Shown here: piece after piece, positions 44,839 to 56,537 of the stretch | Layout of the letters: each line of letters begins with the position of its first letter | How positions within the stretch are numbered: the first letter of the stretch is position 1 | Origin: Desulfuromonas sp. CSMB_57 | GTDB lineage: Bacteria > Desulfobacterota > Desulfuromonadia > Desulfuromonadales > Syntrophotaleaceae | DNA: 64,000 nucleotides | Assembly: GCF_020194955.2 (NCBI RefSeq) | Contig: NZ_JAFCIY020000019.1 | Span: 62,001-126,000 of the forward strand | Reading direction: 5' to 3' | Notes under the pieces: generated by a model | What the model saw: only the letters and a program-made list of their open reading frames with translations | What the model was told of the DNA's origin: nothing | Database searches by the model: none | Position numbers and translations under genes: made by a program

Positions 44839-46266
44839 TCAGGAGGCGGGAAACGCCAGATAAAGAATGGAGTCGCCGCGCCGCAGCAGCAGGCGAACGT
44901 ACCGAGCCTGGTTGACGGCTTCCAGCGCCACTTCAAAGCTGGTCGCATCGGTGATGTCGACATCATTGATGGCCAGCAACAGGTCGCCGCGTCGCACCCC
45001 TGCCGCGGCTGCCATGGATTTGGGCGCCACCGCCGTAACCAGCACCCCGGCACCGGACTCCACCGGCGCCATGGTCAGGCCCAGGGCCTGCCGTTCCTCT
45101 CCCGAAGCGATGGCTGCGCGGGGACCCTTTTTCTCCTGGGCGGCGATGGTGACCGGCAGAGTCAGCCGGCGGTTGTTGCGCAGGACCTCCAGTTGTGACT
45201 GCTCGCCGGCCGGTGCACTGGCGACCAACAGTTGCAAATCGCGCACGTTACGAAGAGCCTTGCCGTTGAAGGACAGCAGGATATCGCCGCGCTGCAGGCC
45301 GGCCCGCGCCGCCGGAGACTCGGGTGCAACCTGGATGACCAGGGCGCCGGTGGCCCGATCCAGGCCGAAGGAGCGGGCCAGATCCGGGGTCAGGTTCTGC
45401 AGGGTGACGCCCAGCCAGCCGCGAATCACTTCGCCCCGCTCAATCAGCTGGTTGGCAATGACCCGGGCCAGGTTGATGGGAATGGCGAAGCCGATGCCCT
45501 GGCCGGCGGCGACGATGGCCGTATTGATGCCGATGACTTCGCCAAAGATATTGAGCAGCGGGCCGCCCGAGTTGCCGGGGTTGATGGAGGCATCGGTCTG
45601 GATGAAGTCCTCGAAATCCTTGATGTTGATGTCATTGCGGCCGGTTGCGGAAATAACACCGACGGTTAGGGTGCGGTCGAGACCGAAGGGGTTGCCGATG
45701 GCCAGGGCCCATTGCCCGACCTTGAGATTGTCGGAATCGCCGAGCACGGTCACCGGCAGCGGATCCTCGCTTTCAATTTTCAGCACCGCCACGTCGGTGC
45801 GCGGATCGGCGCCTACCAGTCGGCCGACATATTCGCGATTGTCGGACAGTTTGACCTTGATCTCCTCGGCGCCCTTGACCACATGTTCGTTGGTCAGGAT
45901 GTAGCCGTCGGTGGTGATGAGGAATCCGGACCCCATGCTCTGGGCGCGGCGTCGAGGTTGGACTTCTTCGGCAAACAGTTCACCGAAGGGGGAGCCGGAC
46001 ATGGGCATGAAGCCGGGTAACTGGCCGCTGCGCGCGGCCTGGATGTGGACCACGGCCGGCGTCACCTTTTCCGAGACCTCGATAAAGGCTTCCTGGGTGG
46101 CCACCAACTCCTTGGCCGGCTTTTCCACCGGTGGCCGCACCCGGGCGTCGCGCACCGAGATGGGGATGCGCGTCTCGGTCTGCCGCTCGCGGCAGCCGCT
46201 CAGCAGCAGGGCCAGGCAGAGCGCCGCGGCCGGCAGGCTGCGGCCAAGATGCGATAGGGGAATCAT
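44839..46266 (-). CDS. degQ: Do-like periplasmic serine protease (DegQ/HtrA), lipoprotein form
   Basis: A 475-residue HtrA protease for periplasmic protein quality control. The signal peptide ends at LLLSGC, a lipobox, so this form should be membrane-anchored rather than soluble. The trypsin-like domain has the triad His in TNEHVV, Asp in RTDVAV and Ser in GNSGGP. Two PDZ domains follow (about residues 285-370 and 385-470, with GLQRGDILLSFNG and GVRRGDLLLAIND). The ATG with GAAGGA upstream is preferred over one nine codons earlier. Gene order degQ, small unknown, rluD, pgeF, HNH suggests one transcript. Confidence 0.94.
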   Translation of the reverse strand: MIPLSHLGRSLPAAALCLALLLSGCRERQTETRIPISVRDARVRPPVEKPAKELVATQEAFIEVSEKVTPAVVHIQAARSGQLPGFMPMSGSPFGELFAEEVQPRRRAQSMGSGFLITTDGYILTNEHVVKGAEEIKVKLSDNREYVGRLVGADPRTDVAVLKIESEDPLPVTVLGDSDNLKVGQWALAIGNPFGLDRTLTVGVISATGRNDINIKDFEDFIQTDASINPGNSGGPLLNIFGEVIGINTAIVAAGQGIGFAIPINLARVIANQLIERGEVIRGWLGVTLQNLTPDLARSFGLDRATGALVIQVAPESPAARAGLQRGDILLSFNGKALRNVRDLQLLVASAPAGEQSQLEVLRNNRRLTLPVTIAAQEKKGPRAAIASGEERQALGLTMAPVESGAGVLVTAVAPKSMAAAAGVRRGDLLLAINDVDITDATSFEVALEAVNQARYVRLLLRRGDSILYLAFPAS

Positions 46267-46500
46267 AGAGCTGCGTCCTTCGTCGATATGCACGGTTCAA
46301 ACCTGGCCATCCAGCAAGCCTGGTGCCGTCAAAAAAAGTAACTATTCAGGGCCTGTAGCGAAGGGTCTGGCGCCCTCCACGCCGAGGTTTGCATGAAACC
46401 ACCCTTGGCGCTTGACGGTCGCCATCCGGGCAGGCCGCCGGACGCGGGCGCCACAAATCAGGCTAAGCCAGCGGAAGAATAGCGGAAATCGGCAGGGCTG

Positions 46501-48547: not shown

Positions 48548-50629
48548 TTGAACGTCATTCGGCAGCTCAAATCGGAAATTTCCACGGCAAGTGGGCTGGA
48601 TGATGGTATTGCGAGCGCCATCGACTGGTTGGCCCGCCATCAGGAAGAGGCGGGTTTCTGGGTCGGCAAGTTGGAATCCAATTCCTGCATTGAAGCAGAA
48701 TGGATTCTGCTCATGCATATCCTGGGCATCAAGGATGATCCCAAGTATTCCGGGGTGTTGCGTGCCATTCTCAATGAGCAGCGGGCCGACGGATCTTGGG
48801 AAGTGTACCACGATGCTCCGGCCGGTGACATCAATGCCACGGTGGAATGCTATGCCGCTTTGCGAGCGGCCGGTTTCAGCCGGGACGATGAGCGGCTGGT
48901 ACGTGCCCGGGAGTGGATTTTCGCCCACGGAGGATTGCGCCAGGTGCGGGTGTTTACCCGCTATTGGCTGGCTTTGATTGGCGAATGGCCGTGGGATGAA
49001 ACACCGGCTCTGGCCCCGGAAATCATCTATCTGCCGGCTTGGTGTCCCCTGAATATCTACGACTTCGCCAGTTGGGCCCGTGCCACTCTGGTCCCCCTGT
49101 GCATCCTCTCGGTACGCCAGCCGGTGCGGGCGCTGCCCGCCGAGCGGCGGCTGGACGAACTGTTCCCGGCCGGTCGCGAAAATGCCGATTACAGCCTTCC
49201 CGAGGTGGAAAAGGGCTTGATGGAGCGGTTTTTCCTGGTGGTGGACTGGCTCCTGAAGCGCTACAACCGTTTGCCGGTTCAGTTTGGGCGGGAAAAAGCC
49301 ATTCATCTGTGTCTTGAGTGGATCCTGCGGCATCAGGACTATGATGGCGGTTGGGGCGGCATCCAGCCTCCCCTTATCTACTCCCTGATGGCGCTGCACG
49401 GCGAAGGCTATGCCTTGGATCACCCGGTGATGGTCAAGGGCCTGGACGCGTTCAATCCGCCCTGGGCTTATGAAAAGAACGGGGGCACCTATCTGCAGTG
49501 CAGCGAATCCCCCATCTGGGACACCCTGTTCACCCTGTTGGCCATGTTCGAGTGTGGCCACACCCTGACCGACCAGCCCATGCTGGGCCCGGCCCTGGAC
49601 TGGGTGCTGAGCAAGCAGATCACCACCTGGGGGGACTGGCAGGTCAAGGTCCGCGGCGTGCCTTCCGGCGGCTGGGCCTTCGAACGGGCCAACACCCGCT
49701 ATCCCGATGTCGATGACACGGCCCTGGCGCTGATTGTGTTGTCCATGGCCCGCGAGCAGGTGGCCGATCCGGGTCCCATCGATGAGGCCATCGGCCGGGC
49801 CGAGGATTGGCTGTTGGGCATGCAGTGCCGCAACGGCGGCTGGGCCGCCTTCGACCGTGACAACTGTAGCGCCATCGTCACCAAGATCCCCTTCTGCGAT
49901 TTCGGCGAGGTTCTGGATCCGCCCAGTGTCGATGTCACGGCGCACGTCATTGAAGCCCTGGCAGCCCGCGGGCGCGGGATGGACGATCCGGCCGTGGCGC
50001 GGGCCCTGGCTTATGTGCGTCGTGAGCAGGAGCCTGAAGGCAGCTGGTTCGGGCGCTGGGGGGTCAATCATATCTATGGCACGGCCGCAGTGCTGCCGGC
50101 CTTGGCCGCTGTCGGTGAAGATATGTCGGCGCCCTATGTGCGGCGAGCCGCCCAATGGCTGGTCGAACACCAGAACGCCGATGGCGGCTGGGGGGAGAGC
50201 TGCGCTTCCTACATGGATGATGCCATGCGGGGACGGGGTGCCAGCACCGCTTCCCAGACCGGTTGGGCGATGATGGCCCTGCTGGCCACGGGCAGCCACG
50301 ACTATGATCCGGCTCTGCGGCGTGGCATGGAATTCCTGCTTGCCCGCCAGTCCGATGGCTCCTGGGCGGAGCCCGAATATACCGGCACCGGCTTTCCCGG
50401 TTACGGCGTCGGCGAGCGGACCAATCTGAAACAGGTCGGGTCCACCCTCGATCAGGGCGCCGAACTGGCCCGCGGATTTATGATCAACTACAATATGTAC
50501 CGGCACTACTTTCCGCTCATCGCCCTCGGCCGGGCTCGGAGCCATTTCGGCTTGGCGCCGCAAGGGCGGACCGAGCCGATTCCGATGGAGCACGCCTGGG
50601 TCAAGGGAGCGGTCGGCGGCGAGTGCTAG
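48548..50629 (+). CDS. shc: Squalene-hopene cyclase
   Basis: A 693-residue membrane-associated cyclase that turns squalene into hopene or hopanol, the base of hopanoid lipids. The catalytic acid motif DVDDTA lies at about residues 386-391. Several QW repeats are visible, such as QDYDGGWGG, QCRNGGWAAF, QNADGGWGE and QSDGSWAE. The C-terminal block GTGFPGYGVGERTNL is also typical. The start is a TTG with GGGAGG seven bases upstream, giving MNVIRQL. No other hopanoid gene is in view. Confidence 0.95.
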   Translation: MNVIRQLKSEISTASGLDDGIASAIDWLARHQEEAGFWVGKLESNSCIEAEWILLMHILGIKDDPKYSGVLRAILNEQRADGSWEVYHDAPAGDINATVECYAALRAAGFSRDDERLVRAREWIFAHGGLRQVRVFTRYWLALIGEWPWDETPALAPEIIYLPAWCPLNIYDFASWARATLVPLCILSVRQPVRALPAERRLDELFPAGRENADYSLPEVEKGLMERFFLVVDWLLKRYNRLPVQFGREKAIHLCLEWILRHQDYDGGWGGIQPPLIYSLMALHGEGYALDHPVMVKGLDAFNPPWAYEKNGGTYLQCSESPIWDTLFTLLAMFECGHTLTDQPMLGPALDWVLSKQITTWGDWQVKVRGVPSGGWAFERANTRYPDVDDTALALIVLSMAREQVADPGPIDEAIGRAEDWLLGMQCRNGGWAAFDRDNCSAIVTKIPFCDFGEVLDPPSVDVTAHVIEALAARGRGMDDPAVARALAYVRREQEPEGSWFGRWGVNHIYGTAAVLPALAAVGEDMSAPYVRRAAQWLVEHQNADGGWGESCASYMDDAMRGRGASTASQTGWAMMALLATGSHDYDPALRRGMEFLLARQSDGSWAEPEYTGTGFPGYGVGERTNLKQVGSTLDQGAELARGFMINYNMYRHYFPLIALGRARSHFGLAPQGRTEPIPMEHAWVKGAVGGEC

Positions 50630-50682
50630 GTCTCATGCCGTGCTTGTCGTTGCCGGGCCGCCGGTGAAGAGAAGGTTTTGGG

Positions 50683-50717
50683 AAAAGCCGTCTGCCAGGG
50701 TGCCGGACGGCTTTTTT
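50683..50717 (+). terminator. Rho-independent terminator after shc
   Basis: An AAAAGCCGTC / GACGGCTTTT stem with a 13-base interior part is followed by more T. It cleanly separates shc from the sigma-54 regulator gene. Confidence 0.85.
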
Positions 50718-50777
50718 CGTGGCAAGGCCAGGCCTTGGGGTCTGCTGGGGCGGGCCGATTATGGGAAAGGATAGGCA

Positions 50778-52238
50778 GTGACGGCAAGGCTGCGCAGCGC
50801 AGATGACTCACATCTTCCGGTTCCCGCTCCGGATTTGTTGGCGATTGAGGATCCGGGTGGGACGTGGCGGGTGCGCAGCGTCTCGCCACGGCTGGCTGAG
50901 GCCTTGGGCCTCGATCCGCTTGCCGCTCGCGGCAGTTTCTTGTCCCGGCTGCTGCCCCGCAGCGTGCCGTCGTTGGTCGAACTGGCGACGGAAGTGGCGC
51001 AGACCGGACAGGCTCTGTCCGATATTCGCACCTATCTGACGGATGGCGCGGCGCTCTGGTCGCTGGAAGTCCGGCCGGCCGGCAGGCAGGAGGACGGGAA
51101 ACGGTTGGTTGCCTTTTTTCTGAACCGGCCTCCTGCCGACGAACAGCTCAGGCCGCGGACCTTGCACGGTCTGGTCGGGGACAGCCCGGCCATGCGCGAG
51201 GTTTTTCGCAAGATTGCCCTCTATGCGCCGTCCCCGGCGGCGGTGGTCGTTACGGGAGAAACCGGAACCGGCAAGGAGTTGGTGGCGCGCGCCCTGCACG
51301 ATCAGAGCCTGCGCAGTGACGGACCCTTCATAGCCGTGAATTGCGCGGCCATTTCCGAAGAATTGCTGGAGTCGGAACTGTTCGGCCACGAACGGGGCGC
51401 CTTCACCGGAGCGGTGCGCAGCCATCATGGACGCTTTGAAAGGGCCGATGGCGGGACCCTGTTCCTGGATGAGATCGGCGACATGCCTTTAGCCACCCAG
51501 GCCAAGTTGCTGCGGGTGCTGGAGGAAGGCGTGGTCGAGCGCCTCGGCAGCGAGCGGGGGGTTCGCGTCGATGTGCGCATCGTGGCGGCCACCAATATTC
51601 CCCTGGAGCAGGCCGTCGGAACGGGGCGGTTTCGGGCCGACCTCTACCACCGTCTGTCGGTGCTGCGCATTCATCTGCCGCCCCTGCGCGAACGGCCCGA
51701 GGATATTCCCCTCCTAATTGAGCATTTCCTGCGGCTTTTCAGTCGCAAATATCAGCGGCGCATTCAGCGTCTGACTCCGGAGGCGGTCGGTCTGCTGCAG
51801 GCTTATCTGTGGCCCGGCAACATTCGTGAGTTGCGCAACGTTCTGGAGCGGGTGTTCATTGAAACCCAGGGCGAGGTCATCGGCAGCCGAGCCTTCCTGG
51901 AATGGGTCCGGGAGCGCCAGGATTTTGTCGGCAGTTCCTGGTCCTCCGAGGAGTCCCAACCCCGTCCGGCAACGGTAGTGCTGCCCTATGATCCGGCCCT
52001 GGCCGGCAGGTCGACACCCATGGATGCCGCCGAATTTTCGCGGCTGTCGGAACCCTTTCCGCCGGACCGCTCGCGACGGGGCCGGACGTCTCCGGTGCGT
52101 CTCGATGTCGCTGCCATCCGCGCCGCCATGCACCGCGCCAACGGCAATCTGACGGAAGCGGCCCGCTATCTCGGGGTGCATCGCGCCACCCTGTACCGCT
52201 ATCTTTCCAAGCTCGGTCTGTCTCGCGCCGATTTCTGA
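50778..52238 (+). CDS. Sigma-54-dependent transcriptional activator (enhancer-binding protein)
   Basis: A 486-residue activator. Residues 1-120 or so form a PAS-like sensory region without a receiver Asp. The AAA+ domain (about 130-360) has Walker A GETGTGKE, the sigma-54 contact loop GAFTGA, and LFLDEIGDM. The C-terminus has a Fis-type helix-turn-helix ([21 protein letters not shown]). It starts at a GTG with AAAGGA upstream. It lies directly before the hsp20 promoter, which has a -24/-12 element and multiple inverted half-sites, so it most likely activates the hsp20-hsp20-clpB genes. Confidence 0.93.
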
Positions 52239-52280
52239 AATTTTTCCCCATTTCCCACGTGGATGACTGGCGCCGCGAAT

Positions 52281-52343
52281 GTTGCAAGTGAGTCAACTTG
52301 CAACGTCGCAAACTTGTTTGCGACGCATTTGCGACGTTGCAAG
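52281..52343 (+). promoter_or_regulatory. Cluster of six half-sites, predicted enhancer (UAS)
   Basis: Six copies of GTYGCAAR or its complement lie within 63 bp: GTTGCAAG (52281), CTTGCAAC (52297), GTCGCAAA (52305), TTTGCGAC (52317), TTTGCGAC (52328) and GTTGCAAG (52336). Two form strong palindromes: GTTGCAAGT-N6-ACTTGCAAC, and GTCGCAAAC-TT-GTTTGCGAC, which is perfect. They lie about 70-130 bp upstream of the -24 element. Confidence 0.75.
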
Positions 52344-52412
52344 TTTTTTCAGCGCACCGGCCTTTTTCTGCTAACCTGTTAATACCACAAGAAAAACTTC
52401 TCAAAGCCGAAT

Positions 52413-52429
52413 TTGGCACGAAGGTTGTT
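52413..52429 (+). promoter_or_regulatory. Sigma-54 (-24/-12) promoter of the hsp20 genes
   Basis: TTGGCACG, four bases, then TTGTT. The -24 block matches consensus fully; the -12 block has T in place of C (TTGCW). It lies 60 bp before the first hsp20 ATG. Confidence 0.75.
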
Positions 52430-52488
52430 ATGACAAACAGTCGAAAAGACAAAAACCTCAGTCATCACCACCATTCAAGGAGGAGCAT

Positions 52489-52935
52489 ATGGCCAACTGG
52501 GATCTGTTCAGGGAAATGGATAATCTGCGCCGTGAAATCGATGAAGCGTTTCGTGGTTTTGGCGGGCGCGGCCTGCGGGGCGCCAGGCTGCTGCCGGCTG
52601 CCGGGCTGCGCCGGCAGGTGCGCCTGAACCTCTATGGCGACGCGGATAAACTCTATGTTGAAGCGCTGGTGCCGGGTGTGGCTCCGGAAAAACTGGACGT
52701 GACCGTGGAAGGCAACGTGCTGACCATATCCGGCGAACGCCAGGCCGTGGAAGAGCAGGGCCAGACGTGGCACCGTCGGGAGCGTGAAACAGGTCGCTTC
52801 ATGCGGACCCTGGAATTGCCCGTCGAAGTTGATGCGGATCAGGTCAAGGCCAACTATCGGGACGGCGTGCTCACCGTGACCTTGCCGAAGTCCATGGCGG
52901 CGCGGCCGAAACGCATTAGCATTCAGGCCGAGTAA
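52489..52935 (+). CDS. Small heat-shock protein, Hsp20/alpha-crystallin family (first copy)
   Basis: A 148-residue chaperone that holds unfolding proteins. The short N-terminal arm (WDLFREMDNLRREIDEAFRGF) precedes the alpha-crystallin domain (about 42-140), with VEALVPGVAPEKLDVTVEGNVLTISGER and the conserved GVLTVTLPK motif. It has an AAGGAGGA ribosome site. It is the first gene after the predicted sigma-54 promoter and precedes a second Hsp20 gene by 48 bp. Confidence 0.94.
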   Translation: MANWDLFREMDNLRREIDEAFRGFGGRGLRGARLLPAAGLRRQVRLNLYGDADKLYVEALVPGVAPEKLDVTVEGNVLTISGERQAVEEQGQTWHRRERETGRFMRTLELPVEVDADQVKANYRDGVLTVTLPKSMAARPKRISIQAE

Positions 52936-52983
52936 GGACCGTTCACGCGTCACGTTGCACCAGAACCATAAAGGAGAATGACC

Positions 52984-53388
52984 ATGGCCGAAAAAACCTA
53001 TGTTGCCAACCATAAGAATGAATCGGAAACCACCTCCCGCGAAGAAACCCGGGCTCCGGAACGCTATGCCGTGCCGGCCGTCGATATTCTCGAAGGGGCC
53101 CACGGTCTGACCTTGGTGGCGGATTTGCCGGGGGTCGCCAGGGAGGCCTTGACCATCGATGTGGATCAGGGCGTGCTGACCATCGAAGGGCCTGCCAATG
53201 GGGCGCCGCCGGCGGAGGAAGTGTACCGGGAGTTCAATTGGCCCCATTTCTATCGCCAGTTCCGGATTCCCGAGGGGATTGACGTGGAAAAGGTCAGCGC
53301 CGCTTTCAGCAACGGCGTCCTGACTTTGACCCTGCCCCGCATGGAGGCGGCCAAGCCGCGGCGAATCGAGGTCACTCCGGGGGAATGA
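52984..53388 (+). CDS. Small heat-shock protein, Hsp20/alpha-crystallin family (second copy)
   Basis: A 134-residue Hsp20. It lacks the WD-type N-terminal arm of the first copy and has a hydrophilic, Glu-rich start (NHKNESETTSREETRAPERYAVP). Its alpha-crystallin domain contains LVADLPGVAREALTIDVDQGVLTIEG and FSNGVLTLTLPR. The second of two close ATG codons is chosen because AAGGAGA lies seven bases before it. Paired divergent Hsp20 proteins often form mixed complexes or sort clients differently. Confidence 0.93.
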   Translation: MAEKTYVANHKNESETTSREETRAPERYAVPAVDILEGAHGLTLVADLPGVAREALTIDVDQGVLTIEGPANGAPPAEEVYREFNWPHFYRQFRIPEGIDVEKVSAAFSNGVLTLTLPRMEAAKPRRIEVTPGE

Positions 53389-53474
53389 GGGGCGCGGCGG
53401 GCCTGCCGTGCAGGCCCGCCAGAACCAACGGCCGCGGCTAACCGGGATCTGCCGGGAAGGAGCATCGAACCATT

Positions 53475-56108
53475 ATGGATATGAATAAAATGACCCAGAA
53501 AACCCAGGAAGCCCTGCAGGCCGCTCAGAACCTGGCGCTGAAGAGGGGCCATATCGAAGTCGACGGGGAACACCTGCTGGCCGCCTTGCTGGAACAGGAA
53601 GGCGGCCTGGTGCCGCGCTTGCTGGAGAAGATGGAGGTTTCCGTCTCCGGCCTGACCGCAGGCCTGCGGCAGGAACTGGACCGTCGGCCGAGCGTTTCCG
53701 GCCCGGGAGTCGAGGGGGGAAAAATCTATGTGACCCAGCGACTCAACCGGTTGCTGCTGAAAGCCGAGGAAGAGGCCAGGCACCTGCGGGATGATTACGT
53801 CAGCGTCGAGCACCTGTTGCTGGCCCTGGTCGAGGAGGGCGACGGCAGTCCGGCCGGGCGTCTGTTCCGTCAGTTCCATATCAGTCGTGATCGTCTGTTG
53901 CAGGCTCTCACCGCCATTCGGGGTCATCAGCGGGTCACCAGCCAGGACCCGGAAGGTACCTATGAGGCCCTGGAAAAATACGGTCGCGACCTGGTTCAGG
54001 AGGTACGCAAGGGCAAGCTGGATCCGGTCATCGGCCGCGACGCCGAGATCCGCCGGGTGATTCGCATCCTGTCGCGCAAGACCAAGAACAATCCGGTGCT
54101 CATCGGCGAACCCGGGGTCGGCAAAACCGCCATCGTTGAAGGGTTGGCGCACCGCATCGTGCGCGGGGACGTGCCCGAAGGCTTGAAGAACAAGACCGTC
54201 TTCGCCCTCGATATGGGGGCGCTGGTGGCCGGCGCCAAGTATCGCGGCGAGTTCGAAGAACGTCTCAAGGCGGTGCTCAACGAGATTCGGGCCAGCGAAG
54301 GCCGCATCCTGCTGTTCATCGATGAATTGCATACCATCGTTGGCGCCGGCAAGGCCGAAGGGGCCATGGATGCCGGCAACATGCTCAAACCCATGCTGGC
54401 TCGAGGCGAGTTGCACTGCATCGGTGCCACGACCCTGGACGAATATCGCAAATACATCGAAAAGGATGCCGCCCTGGAGCGGCGCTTCCAGCCGGTGCTG
54501 GTCGATCAGCCGACGGTGGAGGATACCGTCAGCATCCTGCGCGGTCTCAAGGAACGCTTCGAGGTCTATCATGGCGTGCGCATCCAGGACAATGCCCTGG
54601 TGGCGGCGGCGACCCTCAGCCACCGCTACATATCGGACCGATTTCTGCCGGACAAGGCCATCGACCTGGTGGACGAGGCCTGTGCCACCATCCGCACGGA
54701 AATCGATTCCCTGCCGGCGGAACTGGACGAGGTGACCCGACGGGTGATGCAACTGGAAATCGAGGAGGCCGCCCTCAAGAAGGAAAAAGATCCGGCCAGC
54801 AAGGCCCGTCTGGAGGCCCTGCGCAAGGAGTTGGCCGAGCACAAGCACCAGGCCGACGTGCTGCGCGCCCAGTGGGACAAGGAAAAGAGCGCCATCAAGG
54901 ACGTGCAGGCCCTGCGCGAGCAGATCGAGCAGGTCCGTCAGCAGATCGAGGTGGCGGAACGCAATTACGACCTCAACCGTGCCGCCGAACTCAAGCACGG
55001 CCAACTGCCCGAACTGGAGCGGCGCCTGCGCGACCAGGAGGAAGCCTCCGCCGGCGAAGGTGCCGGAGCGCGCCTGCTGCGCGAGGAGGTTACCGAGGAG
55101 GAGATCGCCGAGATCATCTCACGCTGGACCGGCATCCCCGTGACCCGGCTGGTGGAGGGCGAACGGGAGAAGCTGCTCAAGCTGGATCAGGTTCTGCACC
55201 GGCGCGTAATCGGCCAGGATGAGGCGGTGCAACTGGTGGCGGACGCCGTGATTCGGGCCCGTTCCGGCATCAAGGATCCGCGTCGGCCCATCGGCTCCTT
55301 TATCTTCCTCGGACCGACCGGGGTCGGCAAGACCGAACTGGCCCGCGCCCTGGCTGAATCCTTGTTCGACAGTGAGGACAACATGGTGCGCATCGACATG
55401 TCGGAGTACATGGAGAAGCACACCGTGAGTCGGCTCATCGGCGCGCCGCCGGGCTACGTCGGCTACGAGGAAGGCGGGCAGCTCACCGAAGCGGTGCGCC
55501 GCAAGCCCTATGCGGTGATCCTGTTCGACGAAATCGAGAAGGCCCATCACGATGTGTTCAATGTGCTGCTGCAGATTCTCGACGACGGCCGGGTGACCGA
55601 TGCCCAGGGCCGCACGGTGGATTTCAAGAACACCGTCATCATCCTGACCTCCAACATCGGCTCCCAGTATCTGCTGGAGGGCTTGGGCGAAGACGGCAGC
55701 ATTCGGGAGTCGGCCGCCAAGGCGGTCATGGGCGAATTGCGCCACCATTTCCGGCCCGAATTCCTCAACCGGGTCGATGACGTGGTGTTGTTCAAGCCTT
55801 TGACCCGCGAGGAAATCAAGCGCATCGTCGATCTGCTGGTGCAGGATCTGCGCAAACGGCTCGCCGGGCGGCGCATCACTCTCGAATTGACCGATGCGGC
55901 CCGCGATTTCGTGGCCCAAGAGGCCTTCGATCCGGTCTATGGCGCCCGACCTCTGAAACGTTATCTCCAGCACCATCTGGAAACCCGTCTCGGCCGGGCC
56001 CTCATCGGGGGCGATATCCGCGATGGCGCGACCATTACCGTCGATGCCCAGGGGGGAGAGTTGGTCGTCATCCCCCGCAGCGCCGAGGAGCAGGAGGGCC
56101 GCTCCTGA
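53475..56108 (+). CDS. clpB: ATP-dependent disaggregase ClpB
   Basis: An 877-residue AAA+ chaperone that pulls proteins out of aggregates with DnaK. In order: N-terminal Clp repeats (1-145), first ATPase domain with GEPGVGKT near residue 211, the long coiled-coil M domain (about 405-530, [19 protein letters not shown]), and second ATPase domain with GPTGVGKT near 613 and [10 protein letters not shown]. The M domain and lack of a ClpP-binding loop identify ClpB rather than ClpA. GGAAGGAG lies upstream at longer spacing. It follows the two hsp20 genes by 86 bp, a coherent disaggregation module. Confidence 0.96.
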
Positions 56109-56261: not shown

Positions 56262-56537
56262 ATGCGTATCGATATTCTTTGCAAGCCGGATTGTGGCGGA
56301 CGGTGCAGCCAGACCCTCTCCAACGTGCGTGAGGCCCTGGACGAGATGGGGGTGAAGGCCGAAGTTCATCTGTACCGAGATGGCCGCAAGCTCATCGACC
56401 ATCGGGTGTATGTCACGCCGGCGCTGTTGCTGGACGATGATCTGCGGGTGGCGGGCCGGGTACCGGATGTGTCGGAAATCAAATCCCTGGTGTTTGAAAA
56501 GTCCAGGTACCGGCGGCGTTATAAAGAGGCGGTATAG
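56262..56537 (+). CDS. Small thioredoxin-fold protein
   Basis: A 91-residue protein with a thioredoxin/glutaredoxin-like fold: an initial strand RIDILCKPDCGGRC carrying three Cys (CxxxCxxxC), an amphipathic helix (TLSNVREALDEMG), a second strand and the cis-Pro loop VTPALLLDDDLRVAGRVPD. The Cys spacing is unlike classic CxxC, so redox activity is uncertain; metal or cluster binding is an alternative. It has its own strong promoter and terminator. Confidence 0.7.
   Translation: MRIDILCKPDCGGRCSQTLSNVREALDEMGVKAEVHLYRDGRKLIDHRVYVTPALLLDDDLRVAGRVPDVSEIKSLVFEKSRYRRRYKEAV

Follow-up and report, generated by a model that had tools for sequence, protein, structure and literature searches.

A Probable Dedicated Sigma-54 Switch for the Chaperone Operon hsp20–hsp20–clpB

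Organization of the Chaperone Locus

The locus lies in a 3.14 Mb draft genome, on bases 62001–126000 of contig 64, and this whole stretch of 64,000 nucleotides, which was analysed throughout, is referred to below as the window. Four genes follow one another on the + strand: the gene of a sigma-54-dependent activator (bEBP; 50778–52238), hsp20-A, hsp20-B and clpB. The activator consists of a PAS fold at about residues 18–116, an AAA+ domain with the GAFTGA motif and a C-terminal Fis-type HTH. The gene hsp20-A (52489–52935, + strand) encodes a small heat-shock protein of 148 aa (Pfam HSP20, E 7.8e-26) and has the ribosome-binding site AGGAGGA at 52478–52484, and hsp20-B (52978–53388, + strand) encodes another of 136 aa (Pfam HSP20, E 1.2e-19). 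The disaggregase gene clpB (53475–56108, + strand; 877 aa), whose product scores 1411 bits with NCBIfam TIGR03346 (chaperone_ClpB, cut-off 1232), is the last gene of the predicted operon, the two hsp20 genes and clpB probably being transcribed together.

Two neighbours were named from their translations. A squalene-hopene cyclase-like gene (48548–50629) lies just 5' of the activator gene, a position that it also occupies in 7 of 40 loci fetched from relatives, all of family f1. A few kb upstream, an open reading frame on the minus strand (44839–46293) was judged by eye to encode an HtrA/DegP-like periplasmic protease, a second protein-quality gene near the chaperone unit. After clpB and a gap of about 150 bp, in which a TATAAT-like box can be seen by eye, a small thioredoxin-fold protein is encoded at 56262–56537 (Pfam Thioredoxin_3); this gene is probably a separate unit.

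The Activator and Its Sensor Region

The activator matches Pfam Sigma54_activat with an E-value of 7.7e-71 (237.6 bits) and HTH_8 with 3.6e-9. In an alignment of 36 members, the window's protein included, the Walker A motif GETG.GKE is invariant and GAFTGA nearly so; HTH_8 is found in all 36, and the Fis-type HTH (motif starting AR) is strongly conserved. By its AAA+ and HTH domains the protein belongs to the bEBPs, and it is predicted to bind enhancer sites and to open the promoter by ATP hydrolysis; it reaches none of the NCBIfam cut-offs of NifA, NtrC, NorR, PspF and DhaR.

The original prediction gave the activator a PAS-like sensory region in place of a receiver, and this description holds. 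No receiver domain appears among its 24 Pfam matches at E up to 1, and a single-sequence structure model of residues 1–131 of the window's own protein shows the succession of elements typical of a PAS fold, two strands, helices and three strands (pLDDT 76.2, pTM 0.69). Most of the 50 PDB matches listed for this model (E 2e-4 to 3e-3) are PAS, LOV and FixL-type domains, and DhaR's sensor region, in its complex with DhaK, is among the matches (ranks 24 and 26). By sequence, PAS_4 is matched at E 7.6e-4, under the curated cut-off of that family, and reaches E 0.01 or better in 3 of the 36 members; in a profile search of the PDB, the best match is an unrelated chain (E 0.015), and a phytochrome follows at 0.039. 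Judging from the model, the N-terminal region adopts a PAS fold, an assignment that is weak by sequence alone.

The PAS region of the 36 members is nearly invariant only at prolines, leucines and single Asp, Trp, Gly and Val positions. No Cys or His column of this region is common to more than 9 of the 36 members, which makes sensing by haem, FeS or flavin-Cys unlikely. The input would be protein-folding stress, read by or through the PAS domain. Direct sensing of stress by this domain is a guess, and in our view the input is most likely to come from partner proteins, which might be the chaperones; the sigma-54 activator DhaR is controlled by its partners.

The -24/-12 Element and Other Promoter Systems

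A -24/-12 element had been predicted before hsp20 and was found in place: TGGCACGAAGGTTGTT (52414–52429, + strand, with GG at 52415–52416, TTG at 52425–52427 and the T of -12 at 52428) ends 59 bp before the hsp20 ATG and is the sole mismatch-free match to TGGCACGNNNNTTGYW in the window, so placed that the hsp20 transcript would start near 52440. A -24 GG with the right spacing to the -12 box was found in 35 of 36 upstream regions and in 14 of 14 held-out loci. The presence of GG and TG is no test of the promoter because the search pattern demands both; the base after TTG was left free. The upstream region without an element, before clpB of G033, was left out of the promoter counts.

It has been reported that the sigma-54 consensus at -12 is TTGCW (quoted in PMC2725144). 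In the 35 promoters the base after TTG is A in 19, T in 14, G in 2 and C in none, and C is likewise absent from all 14 held-out promoters, giving 49 of 49. The T that was originally considered unusual is therefore not special in itself; what stands is that C is missing, any other base being accepted. TTGC does occur in the order, before two PilA-like genes. The missing C is an order-wide feature and not a quirk of the window's copy. With its incomplete GC at -12, the element would act as a sigma-54 promoter that departs from the consensus; its use by sigma-54 polymerase is the probable reading, and low basal output from a -12 box without C is plausible.

In the genomes of the order, TTGGCACG-N4-TTGC gave 30 matches against 16 for the reversed control, and TTGGCACG-N4-TTG followed by A, G or T gave 108 against 63 (sums made by hand), 16 of the 108 being the chaperone loci described here, so that this comparison of TTGC with other endings is a weak one. 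The string TTGGCACG[AG]GAWTTGA recurs in G005, G006, G008, G010, G031, G032 and others beside TATA-like boxes; it mimics a sigma-54 promoter, but by eye it resembles the tail of one conserved gene rather than a promoter.

The control of heat-shock chaperones is usually attributed to sigma-32, HrcA or HspR. The CIRCE motif, TTAGCACTC-N9-GAGTGCTAA, has no match in the window with up to 3 mismatches, which bears out the earlier statement that no such element was seen. It is considered unlikely that hsp20 and clpB are driven mainly by sigma-32 or sigma-70, with the -24/-12 element in a secondary and minor role, as for E. coli ibpB, whose precedent speaks for this arrangement together with the presence of RpoH (343 bits against a cut-off of 323 in the window's own genome, and over the cut-off in 49 of the 58 genomes searched, own included) and with TTGACA-like boxes seen by eye before hsp20 in some activator-free relatives. 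However, a sigma-32-like site (CTTGA, 13–17 bp, C[CT][CT][CA]AT) occurs in none of the 36 upstream regions and nowhere in 52239–52488, the single sigma-70-like site found in 50600–53600 lies far upstream on the other strand, and what the copies share is the geometry of operators and -24/-12 element. Since RpoH is present, the sigma-54 control should be regarded as added to a sigma-32 system rather than known to replace sigma-32.

Operators Upstream of hsp20

Six half-sites between the activator gene and hsp20 had been pointed out. Six exact copies of GTYGCAAR are indeed present at 52281–52343 (14 in the whole window), and the 251 bp before hsp20 contain them in clear excess of chance (shuffle mean 0.16, maximum 3 in 5000 shuffles). 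They are better read, though, as two phased 12-bp palindromes of consensus TGCGACGTCGCA than as six loose half-sites. The distal palindromic operator, TGCAACGTCGCA (half-sites 2 and 3; 52299–52310), starts 116 bp above the -24 GG, and the proximal one, TGCGACGTTGCA (half-sites 5 and 6; 52330–52341), starts 85 bp above it. The exact matches also include an upstream auxiliary half-site, GTTGCAAGT (52281–52289, + strand), and one between both palindromes, GTTTGCGAC (52316–52324, - strand); minus-strand half-sites at offsets -96 to -93 number 15 in total over 35 loci.

The conserved unit in the intergenic regions of relatives is the palindrome TGCGACGTCGCA, usually in two copies. A slot being counted as filled at 10 of 12 letters or better, with a motif first derived from these same loci, the proximal slot (-88 to -78 from the -24 GG) is filled in 29 of 35 promoters (shuffle mean 0.025 loci), the distal slot (-130 to -110) in 28 of 35 (shuffle mean 0.05 loci) and both in 26 of 35. 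Neighbouring palindromes are spaced by 34 bp in 11 loci, 33 in 8, 31 in 3, 32 in 2, and 22, 43, 44 or 45 in one locus each, that is, by about two, three or four helical turns. A palindrome half followed after 64–94 bp by a -24/-12 element gave exactly one match per genome in 17 of 58 genomes and none in the reversed control.

In the window's own genome, the 11-mer GCGACGTYGCA has 3 matches, the two operators described here and one inside a gene, which leaves no wider regulon with the exact motif; the reversed control has 6 matches, so that the enrichment lies in how the 11-mer is arranged and not in the 11-mer as such. The gene containing the third match was judged by eye to encode lipoyl synthase.

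Between operators and promoter lies an IHF-like bend element, TAACCTGTTAATA (52372–52384), which agrees with the IHF consensus at 8 of 9 positions. Across the loci, the motif YAA-N4-BNRAWW, which is similar to the IHF consensus given in PMC7962754 when that is read as its reverse complement, occurs at -43 to -40 from GG in 23 of 35 loci and in 0–3 loci per other 4-bp bin; the best IHF-like score averages 7.40 of 9 against 6.82 in shuffled sequence (sd 0.10, max 7.03; 100 rounds). The motif was found after looking, and therefore mainly its fixed position is offered as evidence. This position fits the usual enhancer–bend–promoter layout, in which IHF itself would presumably act. In an IHF mutant of G. 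sulfurreducens, it has been reported that an Hsp20 gene, which may be unrelated to the hsp20–clpB unit, goes up, not down (PMC7962754).

Distribution and Co-Occurrence of Activator and Operators

Of the 58 genomes searched, the window's own among them, 42 contain the activator at least in part, mostly as full-length matches of about 53–65% identity with a few pieces cut by contig ends (G004, G024, G033 and others); the remaining 16 genomes have weaker matches only, which were taken for paralogues. A class-wide sample of 117 genomes at least 90% complete contained a match at E 1e-95 or better in 47, all of the same family or order. The 13 listed non-matches of that family or order include one genome (G076) later found to carry an interrupted activator. 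No orthologue was seen in 57 sampled genomes of other orders, 7 of which are listed as such and 50 of which were assigned by listing order, and the activator seems to be confined to one order. A search of named genomes for related loci kept 80 loci, which were set aside as paralogues, being mostly AAA+/HTH matches of 38–57% identity.

The order activator–hsp20–hsp20–clpB recurs in many relatives. An array was scored where a palindrome of at least 10 of 12 letters stands 50–140 bp above GG[CT]A[CT]N5[TG]TG and the start of hsp20 or clpB is no more than 170 bp away. Tallied by genome, some loci being one place fetched twice, such an array precedes hsp20 or clpB in 40 of 42 testable activator-positive genomes, among them the window's own and G076 (activator present, interrupted in the assembly), against 1 of 15 activator-negative ones (Fisher p 2e-10, kinship ignored). 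The tally left out G029, where no start was called, and G010, G012 and G019, where no start was testable; G029, an activator genome, has isolated half-sites only. The two positives without an array are G033, with activator and clpB, and G037, in which a contig ends within hsp20.

Absences are spread over the tree, and the activator and the array are lost together inside two genera, whose compared genomes are 99–100% complete: in g3, G002 has everything and G005 and G008 have clpB without the activator, the array or this hsp20, and in g29 the unit is present in G049 and missing from G041, G096 and G115.

For a held-out test, 16 further activator loci were fetched after the criterion had been fixed, from 18 newly found genomes less G105 and G111, where the activator lies at a contig edge. 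Each of the 14 loci with either chaperone gene contains a single array, which directly precedes hsp20 in 12 cases and clpB in 2; the two loci with neither gene have none. Stray arrays are rare: 4 were flagged in 1.5 million strand-bases, of which one (G017) is the hsp20 array cut by the end of the stretch, another (G039) is in our reading the same array seen from the opposite strand, and two are single 10-of-12 matches.

The activator encoded beside the array is probably the protein that binds the TGCGACGTCGCA sites. A different regulator might instead bind the array, the activator merely sharing the locus, and G040, the one activator-negative genome with an array, in an assembly of 640 contigs, could be read in this way; this is very unlikely, however, as several lineages lack both array and activator, as the two are retained jointly where they are dispersed, and as the HTH is so well conserved.

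The Array Follows the Chaperone Genes

The proposed binding of the array by the activator at chaperone promoters agrees with loci in which the genes lie apart. The end of the activator gene is about 2.8 kb from hsp20 in G032 and G023 and about 1.3 kb in G025, and it is 5.0, 4.0 and 0.8 kb from clpB in G020, G052 and G028, respectively; in all six of these loci, with the activator 0.8–5 kb away, hsp20 or clpB is immediately preceded by the palindromes together with a -24/-12-like element. In G026, G042 and G050 the activator gene is followed at once by clpB, which has its own array and promoter (the clpB operator copies of G050 are weak, at 10 and 9 of 12). Where clpB and hsp20 are split into separate operons, an array precedes each in G020, G026, G042, G050 and G056, the hsp20 operon with an array in G026, G042 and G050 being remote from the activator and clpB; hsp20 operons without an array are the pair of G052, two of three in G050 and the second hsp20 of the window's own genome. 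In G016, a more distant clpB (L245, about base 1304) with 60% identity to that of the window is preceded by a perfect palindrome and TGGCATGCCCCTTGAA; it lies on a different contig from the hsp20 locus of G016, whose array is degenerate.

The sites named in the original prediction are thus kept in orthologous loci, as palindromes that follow the chaperone genes, and a sigma-54 control unit for hsp20 and clpB is supported. Its description as self-contained is accurate here and does not extend to several relatives, in which the activator is 0.8–5 kb off or on another contig.

An 18-bp perfect inverted repeat (arms 52295–52312 and 52328–52345), which the two operators form and the original prediction leaves unmentioned, ends in six T at 52344–52349, so an intrinsic terminator of the activator gene spanning 52295–52345, with the likeness to operators incidental, had to be considered, and the RNA fold of 52236–52360 (-43.6 kcal/mol, z -3.45) would suit it; but this is hardly tenable as the main reading or as the reason for conservation, because the array follows the chaperone genes and not the activator end, being found 0.8–5 kb from the activator in the six loci above and at separate hsp20 and clpB loci, with a spacing fixed to the -24 element and a variable distance to the activator stop. 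In the window's own genome the inverted repeat may also end activator transcripts.

Proposed Mechanism

The genes, the operators and their spacing, the promoter-like element and the co-occurrence all come from sequence and comparison, and taken together they favour, with a probability of roughly 0.88, a dedicated sigma-54 switch for the holdase–disaggregase operon hsp20–hsp20–clpB. In this switch, dimers of the activator would most likely bind the two helically phased TGCGACGTCGCA palindromes, about 100–140 bp above the predicted start, where a hexamer would form. An IHF-like bend would bring this hexamer to RNA polymerase–sigma-54 at a -24/-12 element without the usual C, and ATP hydrolysis by the activator would then open the promoter. 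It is a point against the switch that the GC at -12, a hallmark of sigma-54 promoters, is incomplete in every one of the 49 copies.

A further conjecture, and a doubtful one, is that the order runs a separate sigma-54 response to protein aggregation beside RpoH. The Hsp20s and ClpB would hold off the orphan PAS activator through its PAS domain, by analogy with the control of DhaR by its partners; aggregates would titrate the chaperones away, and the activator would then fire promoters that must lack C at -12.

Comparison with Known Systems

In E. coli, a close precedent, sigma-54 serves the small heat-shock gene ibpB alongside sigma-32: it has been reported that a second, sigma-54 promoter lies upstream of ibpB within the sigma-32 operon ibpAB (PMC4316790, PMC4370416). 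Unlike the hsp20–clpB unit, a dedicated adjacent activator and clpB are unmentioned in the passages of these papers on ibpB (PMC4316790, PMC4370416). In Bacteroidota and Planctomycetota, genes for IbpA-type proteins, DnaK, GroEL and COG0542 have been reported behind predicted sigma-54 promoters (PMC12316311). These differ from the present case in belonging to other phyla and in being a statistical result over genomes, and the relevant part of that paper names neither this activator nor this operator nor an hsp20–clpB operon.

In G. sulfurreducens, over-expression of RpoN affected stress and chaperone genes that have no recognisable RpoN promoter, according to the account in PMC2725144. This is suggestively the outcome to be expected if promoters depart from the consensus, and the species may lack the activator. 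By keyword search, the words Hsp20 and ClpB are absent from the main text of a paper on the Desulfovibrio sigma-54 regulome (PMC4641369).

PAS–AAA+–Fis activators such as DhaR have the same domain order as the hsp20–clpB activator. In fold, the modelled PAS domain is close to DhaR's sensor region. DhaR-type activators differ from the activator described here in their targets and inputs, and the DhaR family cut-off lies above its score. In searches of the literature outside subscription journals, no description was found of the activator, its operator or a link to hsp20–clpB, and the operator string gave unrelated matches only. Placing small heat-shock genes under sigma-54 is thus not without precedent, and a dedicated activator–operator module for hsp20–clpB appears to be new as far as these searches go.

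Biological Significance

The disaggregation branch, Hsp20 with ClpB, appears to own an ATP-driven and tightly gated sigma-54 switch that is conserved across the order. Strict searches with the TTGC consensus would miss such promoters, and 49 natural promoters that never have C at -12 offer a direct way to ask what this base does. The unit can also serve as a compact model for how a sigma-54 activator could sense protein aggregation.
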